From the NCBI GenBank assembly GCA_029558435.1, contig JAKQEZ010000029.1, positions 1 to 6,414 on the forward strand: a stretch of 6,414 bases of DNA, in the 5' to 3' direction. Position numbers and translations under genes: made by a program. This DNA is from Bacteroidota bacterium (GTDB lineage: Bacteria; Bacteroidota; Bacteroidia; Flavobacteriales; Crocinitomicaceae). Within the stretch, counting starts at the first letter, position 1; the number at the start of each line of letters is the position of its first letter. The notes under the pieces were generated by a model, which was not told where the DNA came from, made no database searches, and saw only the letters and a program-made list of their open reading frames with translations. Of the stretch, positions 1 to 6,414 are shown in pieces.

Positions 1-1389
1 AATATAGAAACAGCGATTGCAGACATCATTGATAACTCTATTTCAGCTAATTCAAAGAACATCTGGATAAATTTTGAATGGAAAGGTTCTAAAACTTGGC
101 TTTCTATCAAAGATGACGGAATAGGAATGAATGATGCAGAATTAATACAAGCACTGCGGCCAGGAAGCAAAAATCCATTGCAAGAACGTAATCAAAAAGA
201 CTTAGGTCGATTTGGCTTAGGTTTAAAAACTGCATCATTTTCCCAAGCAAGAAAACTAACTGTTATAAGCAAAAAGGCAGATTACAAATCTGTTTTTTGG
301 ACTTGGGATTTGGATTTTGTAAATAAAACTGGGAATTGGGATTTGATAAAGTACTTACCCGATGAAAATTTAGAAACTGAAATTTCAAAATTGACTACTG
401 GTACAATTGTTTTGTGGAATGATATTGACAGAGTTGTTAAAGATTTTAACCAAGACGACAGCAAAGCCGAATTCAAGTTTAATCAAACAATGGAACAAGT
501 GAAAAAGCATCTATCAATGGTATTTCACAAATTCATTGAGCAAGGTAAAATCAATGTTTATTTTCAAGATAAAAAGGTTGATGCTTGGAATCCTTTTCTT
601 AGTAACGAAAAAGCTACACAAGAATTTCCACCTGAAAAAATACAAAATGGCAAGGTTAAAATAGAGGGCTTTGTATTACCACATAAATCGAAGATTTCAG
701 AAGAAACATATAAAAATGCTGAGGGAGTAAAGGGCTGGAACGAACAACAAGGTTTTTATATTTATAGGAATGAACGTTTACTTCTAGCTGGCGATTGGTT
801 GGGTCTTTTTAGAAAGGAAGAGCATTATAAATTAGCCAGAATACAAATTGAATTGCCCAATACACTTGATGAATCTTGGCAAATTGATATTAAAAAATCT
901 ATTGCACGACCGCCTTTAGTTTTTCGTGAACAAATTAGAGCATACGCATTAAAGGTGCGACAACAAGCTGTAGAGGTTTATCGTCACAAAGGAAAAAGTG
1001 TGAAACAAATTGCAGGACAAAAATTTGTTCCACTTTGGGTTGACCACAAACGTGGGGACAAATGGTTTTACAAAATCAATCGTGAAAATCCGATTTTGAC
1101 AAAAATAAAAGAACAAGCTAAAAAGGATTCCGACAAAGCAATTGAAATGCTTTTGCGTTTTATTGAAGAAACAATACCGTCAAAATCAATTTACATAAAA
1201 GAAAGTGAACAGCCCGAATTACAAGGAACGCCTTTTGAAGATACAAATCACGAGATAATCAGAACCACAATGCAAGCAATGTACTCTAGTTTGATTAAGC
1301 AAGGAAAAACAGATGAAGAAGCAAAAGCGATAATTTCAAATATAGAGCCATTCAATAATTTTATTCACTTTCTTGAATTCCTGAAATAA
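1..1389 (+). CDS. GHKL-type (HATPase_c_3, MORC-like) ATPase of a defence cassette, 5' partial
   Basis: The reading frame is open from base 1 to the TAA at 1387-1389, giving 462 visible residues with the true start upstream. The first in-frame ATG (127) is not a credible start: it is the Met ending the ATP-binding motif DDGIGM (residues 38-43) and would delete the nucleotide-binding helix. GHKL motifs appear in order: the N box AIADIIDNS (5-13) with Mg-binding Asn12, the G1 box D38-x-G40-x-G42, the G2 lid GRFGLGLK (69-76) and TGT (133-135). From about residue 251 (GFYIYRNERLL) to DIKKS (296-300) it looks like the S5-fold transducer, with a candidate catalytic lysine at 298/299. The last 150 residues are Lys/Glu-rich and have no domain I recognise; no nuclease motif is evident. 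Known family role: MutL/MORC-like proteins dimerise on ATP binding and clamp or remodel DNA. Placement beside Z1, DUF4420 and AIPR genes fits the paraMORC group of restriction-like systems. Position 8, where MutL has its catalytic Glu, is Asp. The family call is firm; the cellular role is inferred. Confidence 0.93.
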   Translation, partial: NIETAIADIIDNSISANSKNIWINFEWKGSKTWLSIKDDGIGMNDAELIQALRPGSKNPLQERNQKDLGRFGLGLKTASFSQARKLTVISKKADYKSVFWTWDLDFVNKTGNWDLIKYLPDENLETEISKLTTGTIVLWNDIDRVVKDFNQDDSKAEFKFNQTMEQVKKHLSMVFHKFIEQGKINVYFQDKKVDAWNPFLSNEKATQEFPPEKIQNGKVKIEGFVLPHKSKISEETYKNAEGVKGWNEQQGFYIYRNERLLLAGDWLGLFRKEEHYKLARIQIELPNTLDESWQIDIKKSIARPPLVFREQIRAYALKVRQQAVEVYRHKGKSVKQIAGQKFVPLWVDHKRGDKWFYKINRENPILTKIKEQAKKDSDKAIEMLLRFIEETIPSKSIYIKESEQPELQGTPFEDTNHEIIRTTMQAMYSSLIKQGKTDEEAKAIISNIEPFNNFIHFLEFLK

Positions 1390-1394
1390 TATTT

Positions 1395-4178
1395 ATGATA
1401 CAACAAGTAATTAAAACTATCCGAACTTTATTACCAACGACAAGTTCAGTTACCAAGCAAGAAATTGAACAAGCAGTTGACTTTGCTTTAATGATGCCTA
1501 TATACAAAGAACTTGACCGTAATTATTTGATTCGTGAAGTTGAATCGTTGTACAATATCAGAATGGATGATTTCCGAATAATTGAAGATGAAGAAAGGCG
1601 AACCCCTTGGATTGGAAATGCAAAAGCAAATATCACTTGGAGTTTTTGGAACAGATACAGAGATTATTTACAAATTGAAAAAAACTATTCTGATACAGTA
1701 TTAAATCAAATTGACAAACTCACCGACAGAACACTTGACGGGCTTTTCAATCCAACTGAAAAAATCATAGTTGGTAAAAAAGGTTTAGTAGTTGGACAAG
1801 TTCAATCAGGTAAAACATCAAACTATACAGGTTTAATTTGTAAAGCGGCTGACGCTGGATATAAATTGATTATTGTTTTAGCTGGCATTCACAACAATTT
1901 AAGAAGTCAGACACAGCTTCGTTTAGACGAAGGATTTTTAGGTTTTGACACTCAACATCAAAGAGCTTACAATGAAAATGGAGTTGTAATTGGAGTTGGT
2001 AAAATAAATCAAATAGGGGTTGCACATTCGCTTACGTCAAGTCTTGACAATGGAGATTTTGCTACAAAAGCAGCTGATTCAATGGGTGGCTTTAGCTTCA
2101 ACACAGCCGAGCCAATTATTGCAGTAGTAAAGAAAAATTCAAAAATTTTAGAGCGTTTACATACTTGGTTGAGTGCAAAAGCTGAAACTTTGCCAGACGG
2201 CACTAAAAAAATAAGAAGCAAATCATTGTTGCTAATTGATGATGAAGCAGACAATGCCTCAATCAACACAAACAAAGATGAAGATACTGCAACAAGAATA
2301 AATCAGCATATCAAAAACATTCTGAATTTGTGTGAAAGAAGTGGTTATGTTGGCTACACTGCAACACCATTTGCAAATATTTTTATTCCGATTAAAGAGG
2401 ATGATTTATTTCCAAGAGACTTTATCATCAATATTCCAGCACCTAGTAATTATATCGGACCAGAAAAAGTTTTTGGAATTGAAGTTTTAGAAGATGATAA
2501 CGATGAAAACGATTCAGTTTTACCGATTGTAAACCGTGTTGATGATTATAGAGATTCCATACCAAATGGACACAAAAAAGATGACCAACTTCCAACTGAA
2601 CTGCCAGCTTCTTTAAAAACAGCAATAAAATGCTTCATTTTGACTTGTGCAATTAGAAAACTAAGAGGACAAGAGAAAGTGCACAATTCAATGCTTGTTC
2701 ACGTTAGCCGATATACACGCTGGCAAAAACAAATCAAAGAATTAGTTGAAAACACTTTCAATAGTTATCGTTTAGGAATTGAATTTAATAGTTCATCTGT
2801 GCTAAACGAACTTAAAAAAACTTTTGAGGAAGATCACGAATACAACATTTCACACGCTGGCGAAACAATAACAGAACGATATAAAAGTTATAAAACAGTT
2901 TCGCAAATCATACTTGATACAATGCCGAATGTTGATTCTCAAGTGAGCGTTCACACGTGGGAAGAAGTGCTACCGCATTTACATAGTGCTACTGCAAAAA
3001 TTGAAGTTCGAGAAATTAACGGTGGTTCTGGAGATGCATTGAATTATTTTGACCACAAAGATGGCCTTTCAGTTATTGCTGTTGGTGGCGATAAACTTTC
3101 AAGAGGTTTAACTTTAGAAGGTTTATCTGTAAGCTATTATTTACGTGCTTCAAGGATGTACGATACATTAATGCAAATGGGGCGTTGGTTTGGCTATCGC
3201 CCAGGTTATGTTGATTTGTGCCGTTTATTTACAAGCCGAGAATTAAATGAATGGTTTTGCCACATTACACTTGCAAGCGAAGAATTAAGAAGCGAGTTTG
3301 AATATATGTCAGACGTTGCAGGCAGTACGCCTGAGCAATACGCTTTACGAGTAAGAACCCATCCGGGAGTTTTACAGATTTCTGCTTCAAACAAAATAAG
3401 AAGAGCTGTAAATGTTGATATTTCTTGGGCTGGTCGATTAGTTGAATCATATCAGTTACAAAAAACACCAAAAATTGTCCAGTCTAACTTAGAAGCAACA
3501 AGAAGTTTAATCAATTCATTGCCATCAAGTTTTTCAACAAAAGACAATCATATTCTTTGGAAAAATATTTCAGCAGAACTAGTGAAACCTTTCTTTCAAA
3601 ACTTCAAAGTTTCTGAAAGTCTAAAAAAAGTTGACCCTTTAAATCTTCTAAGCTTTATTGATATTTCTAACAGAAGTGGTGAACTAATAAATTGGAACAT
3701 TGCAATTCGCTTTAAAAAAGACGCTGAATTTAATTACGATTTAAATTCAACTAACGGCATTTCTCAAATTGGTTGTATTGTACGAACAAGTGACCCTGAA
3801 AAAAATGACAATAACAATTTGAATATTAGGAAAAATCATATCATTAGTCCGAAAGACGAATTTTTTGATTTAACAGAAGAAGAATACAAAAAAGGATTAG
3901 ACCGAACAAAAGAACTGAACAAAGATTACAAAAATGATTTCCCAAAAGGAGAAATCGTTCGTAATGAAATTAGAAAACCTACAACAGCATTATTGATACT
4001 TTACTTTTTAAATCCTGAGAAAGCAGGTTATAGCGGTAGCGAACCAATTGTAGGTTTTGCAGTAAGCTTCCCAAGAAGTATTGTAAATCCAACTGTTCAA
4101 TTTGCAGTTCACGAACAATTACTTTCAAGATTTGACATTAACGATGATGTAGAAAACGACAATACAGATGAAGATTAA
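1395..4178 (+). CDS. Z1-domain protein, superfamily II helicase-like ATPase
   Basis: A 927-residue protein that I recognise as a Z1-domain protein, a helicase-like family known from restriction-type defence islands. Residues 1-125 are helical and unassigned. Motor motifs follow: Walker A GQVQSGKT (134-141), Walker B DDEAD (282-286), motif III-like GYTATPF (320-326), an HVSRYTRW segment near 437 resembling motif IV, then the Z1 hallmark VGGDKLSRGLTLEG (563-576) and QMGRWFGYR (594-602), which corresponds to motifs V and VI with arginine-finger candidates R597/R602. It is therefore expected to be a nucleic-acid-dependent ATPase acting on DNA in the cytoplasm; direction and substrate are unknown. 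Residues from about 620 to 927 have no domain I can name and end in a very acidic tail (DINDDVENDNTDED). The start at 1395 lies 5 bp after the previous stop, without a Shine-Dalgarno sequence; another in-frame Met occurs only well inside the N-terminal region. The 3' end overlaps the next gene by 11 bp, suggesting coupled translation. All motor residues look intact. Confidence 0.94.
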   Translation: MIQQVIKTIRTLLPTTSSVTKQEIEQAVDFALMMPIYKELDRNYLIREVESLYNIRMDDFRIIEDEERRTPWIGNAKANITWSFWNRYRDYLQIEKNYSDTVLNQIDKLTDRTLDGLFNPTEKIIVGKKGLVVGQVQSGKTSNYTGLICKAADAGYKLIIVLAGIHNNLRSQTQLRLDEGFLGFDTQHQRAYNENGVVIGVGKINQIGVAHSLTSSLDNGDFATKAADSMGGFSFNTAEPIIAVVKKNSKILERLHTWLSAKAETLPDGTKKIRSKSLLLIDDEADNASINTNKDEDTATRINQHIKNILNLCERSGYVGYTATPFANIFIPIKEDDLFPRDFIINIPAPSNYIGPEKVFGIEVLEDDNDENDSVLPIVNRVDDYRDSIPNGHKKDDQLPTELPASLKTAIKCFILTCAIRKLRGQEKVHNSMLVHVSRYTRWQKQIKELVENTFNSYRLGIEFNSSSVLNELKKTFEEDHEYNISHAGETITERYKSYKTVSQIILDTMPNVDSQVSVHTWEEVLPHLHSATAKIEVREINGGSGDALNYFDHKDGLSVIAVGGDKLSRGLTLEGLSVSYYLRASRMYDTLMQMGRWFGYRPGYVDLCRLFTSRELNEWFCHITLASEELRSEFEYMSDVAGSTPEQYALRVRTHPGVLQISASNKIRRAVNVDISWAGRLVESYQLQKTPKIVQSNLEATRSLINSLPSSFSTKDNHILWKNISAELVKPFFQNFKVSESLKKVDPLNLLSFIDISNRSGELINWNIAIRFKKDAEFNYDLNSTNGISQIGCIVRTSDPEKNDNNNLNIRKNHIISPKDEFFDLTEEEYKKGLDRTKELNKDYKNDFPKGEIVRNEIRKPTTALLILYFLNPEKAGYSGSEPIVGFAVSFPRSIVNPTVQFAVHEQLLSRFDINDDVENDNTDED
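4168..4178 (+). other. 11 bp gene overlap between Z1 and DUF4420 genes
   Basis: The ATG of the nuclease gene (4168-4170) lies upstream of the TAA that ends the Z1 gene (4176-4178), in a different frame. The bases before the ATG (acgacaatacag) contain no purine-rich ribosome-binding site. The arrangement is directly visible. The likely meaning is translational coupling, in which ribosomes finishing the Z1 protein restart on the nuclease gene and keep the two subunits in proportion; this is inference. Confidence 0.8.
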
Positions 4179-5163
4179 ACAAATATGGGATGAATTGGCA
4201 AACGACAAATCACTTATTAGTGGTTTGTTGTTTCGCAGATACTCAGGTGCTGTAAAACCCGATGTATATGTTGCTTTGCAACATCCAGAAAAATTTTTGT
4301 GCGTTTATGTTGCAATAAATAAAAACACAGAAGTAAATATTTCTAATTTTTCAAACTTACAGGAAATTCAAGTTGATTTATTTGCTTCGCCAAATGAAGT
4401 AGATAAAAACATTTTGATATTCAAACTGCTCAACTTTGAGCACAAAGATATTTTCGCTGTTCTTTGCGAAGATTTAATTGCAAGTATTTCAGAAGAAACC
4501 AACGAAAAAAGAATCATTCGTGAAGTTCTAAATCGTTTTGAGAAATGGAAATCATTGTTCAATAAAATTGGTTTGCAAGGTTTAAAACCAGAGGAACAAA
4601 GAGGATTGTTTGGAGAACTTTATTTTTTAAGAAAGTACCTAAGGACAACAAACAATTTTCTACCTCTTATAAATACATGGACTGGAACCGAAAAACAAAT
4701 TCGTGATTTTCAAAGTGGTTCTTGGGCAGTGGAGGTAAAGACTACGCACGGCAATAATCATCAAAAAGTTCAAATTAGTAGTGAAAGGCAATTAGACACA
4801 ACAAACCTTGAGAATTTGTTTTTGTACCATATTTCGCTGGAACAGCAACAAAATTCAGGCGAAACACTGAATGACATAGTAGATTCAGTAATAGAAATTT
4901 TAAGAGAAGAAATGATTGCTCTAAATAAGTTTAAAAGCAAAATATATGAAGTTGGATATTTTGATTTGCAACGTCATTTATATGAAAATATTGGCTACCA
5001 CATTCGCCAAGATGAATTCTACAAAGTAGAAAATGATTTTCCAAGAATTGAAGAAAATGATATACGAACAGGTGTTGGTGATGTGAAATATTCAATCATT
5101 TTAACTCAATGCACACCTTTTGCCACAAGTGAGACAGAAGTATTTGACACTATAATACCATAA
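4168..5163 (+). CDS. PD-(D/E)XK motif protein (DUF4420-type), putative nuclease subunit
   Basis: A 331-residue protein of the length expected for the DUF4420 family, annotated as PD-(D/E)XK motif proteins. The nuclease signature is visible in the middle: a conserved helix GLFGELYFLRKYL with Glu150, then Asp180 in RDFQSG and, after a short strand, the E189-V190-K191 triad part in WAVEVKTT (186-193), followed by a KVQISSERQL segment (200-209) that would be the next strand and helix. These residues would bind Mg2+ and hydrolyse a DNA phosphodiester. The N-terminal 140 residues (KQIWDELANDK onward) are probably a family-specific platform domain and the last 100 residues are unassigned. The ATG at 4168 sits inside the end of the Z1 gene in another frame; it gives the family-typical beginning and no upstream Shine-Dalgarno is visible. 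In context it is the best candidate for the cleaving subunit driven by the Z1 motor. Activity and specificity cannot be read from sequence; nickase or degradation roles remain possible. Confidence 0.9.
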   Translation: MKIKQIWDELANDKSLISGLLFRRYSGAVKPDVYVALQHPEKFLCVYVAINKNTEVNISNFSNLQEIQVDLFASPNEVDKNILIFKLLNFEHKDIFAVLCEDLIASISEETNEKRIIREVLNRFEKWKSLFNKIGLQGLKPEEQRGLFGELYFLRKYLRTTNNFLPLINTWTGTEKQIRDFQSGSWAVEVKTTHGNNHQKVQISSERQLDTTNLENLFLYHISLEQQQNSGETLNDIVDSVIEILREEMIALNKFKSKIYEVGYFDLQRHLYENIGYHIRQDEFYKVENDFPRIEENDIRTGVGDVKYSIILTQCTPFATSETEVFDTIIP

Positions 5164-5168
5164 TCCAA

Positions 5169-6414
5169 ATGGAAAAAGAAGTTTTAAAATATTATCAAAG
5201 TCTAAACCAAGACATAAGAGCAACTCAGTTAAGTGAAGAAGATGGAGGTAATTCTGAGCAAATATTTACACAAATTGCACTAAATAATCTTGCTGATGCT
5301 GGTGAAACAGAAAATGCGATTTTGGCTTTTGATAAAAAAGCGATAGGAACAAAAAACCAGCATCAAATTAATGGTTTTGCTATATCTGACAATTATGAAA
5401 CTCTTGACTTATTCGTTACAGTATTCAAGGGAACTGATGAAATATCTACAACAACAAAAGCAGAAATTGAAACTGCTCAAAAGAGAATTTCAAATTTCTT
5501 CAACAAATGCGTTAGCAAAGAATATGTAAACGAAATTGAAGAATCCTCAGAGATTTTTCAGTTAGCAAACACTTTGGCAAATTATGATGAAATTAAGGAA
5601 AACCTTGTTCGAGTAAATGTAATTATTTTGACTGACGGAGAGTACAAAGGTGATTTTCCGAAAAATGATAAAATCAATAATTACAATATTTTTTATAGAG
5701 TTATTGACATTCATTTTCTTTATAAAATTTCAGAACAATCCAGAGTTCCTATAGAGATAGACTTGAACGATTTTGATGGTGAAAGATTTGAGGTGCCGTG
5801 TTTACCAGCTTCTGAAATAAATCCAAAATTCAAAGCATACATTGCAATATTGCCAGGAACTTGTTTAGCAAAATTATATGAGCGTTACGGAGCTAGGTTA
5901 TTGGAACAAAATGTTCGTTCATTCTTACAAGTTGGTGGACGTAATAGTGTAAATTATGGTATCCGCAGTACAATTCGAAATGAGCCAGAAAAGTTTTTTG
6001 CATACAATAATGGTATAGCAGCAACTGCTGACCATATTGAATTAGATGATTCAGGGCGTTATATTTCTAAAATAAGAAATTTACAAATCGTAAATGGTGG
6101 TCAAACAACTGCCTCTATTTATAACACAGCAAAGAAAGACAGAGCAGATATTTCAAAAATATTTGTTCAGGTAAAATTTTCAGTAATTGAAAATCCTGAA
6201 GAATATAGTGACATTGTATCTCTCATTTCAAAGTATGCAAATACACAAAACAAAGTGAATAATGCTGACTTTTCAGCAAACAACCCCGCTTTAGTTGCGT
6301 TTGAAAAATTATCACGATATATTTTATCGCCAATTACAGCAACAAGCAATATTCAAACATCTTGGTTTTTTGAACGTGCAAGAGGACAATATAAAACTTT
6401 GCGAAGTAGAGAAG
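5169..6414 (+). CDS. AIPR-family (abortive infection phage resistance) protein, 3' partial
   Basis: The frame opens at ATG 5169, five bases after the preceding TAA, and stays open to the last base: 415 complete codons with the stop beyond the window. The protein begins MEKEVLKYYQSLNQDI. The AIPR core is clear: LLEQNVRSFLQ (244-254), VNYGIRSTIRNEPEKFFAYN (261-280) completed by NGIAATA (281-287), then LQIVNGGQTTASIY (305-318) and, further on, SLISKYANTQNKVN. These are the usual landmarks of the family (PF10592), named after a lactococcal phage-resistance gene; its biochemical activity is not, to my knowledge, firmly settled. Full-length members are commonly longer than what is visible, so some C-terminal sequence is missing. 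Residues 1-220 form a separate N-terminal region with a strand-like stretch NGFAISDNYETLDLFVTVFK (68-87) discussed among the findings. Occurrence directly after the DUF4420 gene is typical of Z1/paraMORC defence cassettes. No Shine-Dalgarno is visible; it is probably read from the same mRNA as the genes before it. Confidence 0.92.
   Translation, partial: MEKEVLKYYQSLNQDIRATQLSEEDGGNSEQIFTQIALNNLADAGETENAILAFDKKAIGTKNQHQINGFAISDNYETLDLFVTVFKGTDEISTTTKAEIETAQKRISNFFNKCVSKEYVNEIEESSEIFQLANTLANYDEIKENLVRVNVIILTDGEYKGDFPKNDKINNYNIFYRVIDIHFLYKISEQSRVPIEIDLNDFDGERFEVPCLPASEINPKFKAYIAILPGTCLAKLYERYGARLLEQNVRSFLQVGGRNSVNYGIRSTIRNEPEKFFAYNNGIAATADHIELDDSGRYISKIRNLQIVNGGQTTASIYNTAKKDRADISKIFVQVKFSVIENPEEYSDIVSLISKYANTQNKVNNADFSANNPALVAFEKLSRYILSPITATSNIQTSWFFERARGQYKTLRSRE

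Follow-up and report, generated by a model that had tools for sequence, protein, structure and literature searches.

What does the set of four genes do that fills a 6,414-nucleotide stretch of Bacteroidota DNA (assembly GCA_029558435.1, contig JAKQEZ010000029.1, positions 1 to 6,414; hereafter the window)? The window covers the central part of a mobile cassette of bacterial genes. Its four plus-strand genes (1..1389, 1395..4178, 4168..5163 and 5169..6414, the first and last cut by the window ends) encode a GHKL ATPase, a putative motor, a DUF4420 nuclease and an AIPR protein. We compared them with 80 relative loci (L001 onward); the full-length copies of L001, a relative with 92% identity, stand in for the two cut genes.

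Four-gene cassette

A sequence-only reading of this DNA had proposed a four-gene anti-phage cassette. The cassette itself is real: Pfam profiles matched the ATPase (HATPase_c_3) and the fourth gene product (AIPR and AIPR_N), PADLOC profiles matched MzaB and MzaE, and the gene order is identical in all 67 relatives having the four genes. The anti-phage interpretation is borne out in part. We consider the cassette to be probably a motor-driven, methylation-guarded anti-phage restriction operon, in which the host's own DNA would carry methyl marks made by the cassette and two ATP-driven proteins together with a nuclease would attack invading DNA without such marks. A cytosine methyltransferase, whose presence in the operon marks Type II of Miller et al. 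(2022), is encoded in L001 beyond the span equivalent to the window and was matched in 73 of the 80 loci.

ATPase, motor and nuclease

The window holds the 3' 462 codons of the paraMORC/MzaB-like ATPase (PADLOC MzaB, 360 bits); the first ~30 codons fall outside it, and the L001 copy comprises 492 residues. The N box (7-39), G1 (112-129, DDGIGM) and G2 (202-228, LGRFGLGLK) are present, and D38, D41, N42, D68, G70, G72, G99, R100, G102, G104 and K106 (L001 numbering) are invariant in all 72 relatives of at least 400 residues. The second gene product carries DTLMQMGRWFG at 3162-3194; its motifs are kept in 77 of 77 relatives, and motor activity is predicted from them.

The 331-residue DUF4420 protein consists of an N-terminal β-domain of ~125 residues followed by the E-D-ExK site, formed by E150 (4615-4617), D180 (4705-4707), E189 (4732-4734) and K191 (4738-4740). 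These residues lie within the fold, which places DUF4420 in the PD-(D/E)XK group. We also considered AIPR as the main nuclease, with DUF4420 one of several exchangeable accessory modules. This is quite unlikely: the E-D-ExK site is complete in 54 of 54 DUF4420 sequences, whereas AIPR_N has no canonical (D/E)xK, position 82 being F in 52 of 56 sequences and position 66 being K in 51 and Q in five, with Q in both the window and L001.

AIPR protein

The window includes the 5' 415 codons of the MzaE-like AIPR gene (PADLOC MzaE, 216 bits), which encodes 784 residues in L001; it is described here from conservation and, for the L001 copy, from a model and VIA. The AIPR_N residues are E30 (5256-5258), N68 (5370-5372) and D80 (5406-5408), and an NGGQT motif follows at 6093-6107. 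The C-terminal ~150 residues, outside the window, are exchangeable, which is unusual. Tentatively, and with considerable doubt, AIPR might be a three-part switch in the restriction complex: its N-terminal domain would be PD-(D/E)XK-like, its middle ParB-like and nucleotide-binding, and its C-terminal end a recognition tip swapped by recombination to track changing phage triggers or inhibitors. If so, the system would read two signals together, the absence of 5-methylcytosine (m5C) through the motor and DUF4420, and a cue specific to the invader through the AIPR tip, and would therefore fit neither simple restriction nor simple abortive infection. In the literature covered, which mostly leaves out subscription papers, we found neither a PD-(D/E)XK fold at the AIPR N-terminus nor tip swapping reported.

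An unlikely alternative is MZA-like abortive infection, in which the DNA complex would be chiefly a sensor, AIPR a toxic effector halting the infected cell, and methylation would just prevent self-triggering. The AIPR tip is swapped in the way expected of a sensor or effector. AIPR was matched by phrog_1841 ("Abi alpha-like abortive infection mechanism") and AbiU and detected in 72 of 80 loci, five of the eight gaps sitting at contig ends; in PADLOC and NCBIfam alike, the four window proteins are best matched by the models for MzaB, MzaC, MzaD and MzaE.

Comparison with known systems

MZA is reportedly the mzaABCDE set of Gao et al. from 2020. Despite the likeness, the window proteins, two of them cut, reach none of the NCBIfam equivalog cut-offs (426/850, 682/1500, 122/420 and 277/1050 for MzaB to MzaE), and the full-length L001 proteins also fall below them (446, 678, 125 and 375). 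The MzaE models, 593 and 598 positions long, stop ~180 residues short of the AIPR C-terminus and lack its exchangeable tip. A PDLC02203 profile search of 27 genomes carrying relative loci (28 loci asked, L003 left out) found no full-length MzaA; partial matches occurred in 25, the strong ones covering approximately positions 400-670 of 683 (the sigma-70 part), as in 10 of 14 control genomes.

Systems of this kind have been described before; the new details concern AIPR. Such gene neighbourhoods were described by Iyer et al. (2008), and MORC/paraMORC systems have in common with ours the GHKL ATPase, the SF2 motor with DThhQXuRhFG, the E-D-ExK nuclease, DCM, Vsr and AIPR. The accessible parts of Miller et al. 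(2022) propose a defence role for these genes and report ~20% identity to mzaBCDE, with mzaA in few cases only; they mention neither a mechanism nor Vsr/glycosylase exchange nor swapping of the AIPR tip, and tie DNA-repair endonucleases to Type I, whereas here Vsr is common beside AIPR. We found no mechanistic study of such systems within the same literature coverage. Pin25611FIII of Prevotella intermedia, as described in PMC5608340, is a candidate for a close known system. Within the CglI group (CglI/NgoAVII/BceSIV; PMC4267653 and PMC5737866), CglI differs in that its nuclease is of the PLD type, with a B3 domain for recognition, and none of its three genes encodes a GHKL ATPase, DUF4420 or AIPR; the four window proteins matched neither a PLD nor a B3 model, genes beyond the window being checked in part only.

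Neighbouring genes

GHKL/MutL, Vsr and glycosylase are repair families, and the relatives' flanks are mixed with no clear enrichment in defence genes. Even so, an epigenetic or DNA-repair operon with m5C, Vsr and a MutL-like ATPase, without a defence role, is very improbable.

Eight loci (L026, L031, L049, L055, L065, L066, L067 and L073) carry a longer methyltransferase (515-548 residues) with another type of target-recognition region, although some of the other proteins encoded there closely resemble main-group counterparts. The vsr gene lies downstream of AIPR, not ahead of the methyltransferase, in 13 of 39 vsr-bearing loci (e.g., L037:16894-17391), on the opposite strand in seven of the 13. 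Five archaeal and Dehalococcoidia loci without a Vsr match have a MutY/Mig-like HhH-GPD glycosylase near the operon (L015:16214-16939, L019:7331-8011, L053:17389-18072, L068:10710-11399 and L072:15896-16567), identified on the L072 copy and assigned in the others through the same cluster. A single-cluster protein of ~255 residues, with a C-terminal NOV_C domain in its L018 copy (L018:7757-8524), occurs in 13 further loci, mostly between the methyltransferase and the ATPase. Finally, a large histidine-kinase-like protein lies within or beside the operon in L007, L011, L016, L035, L054, L059, L061, L065, L069 and others of its cluster. This protein, which carries a pair of GHKL-type domains in L065 and in L079 and has a receiver-like partner in some loci, is possibly a signalling input.
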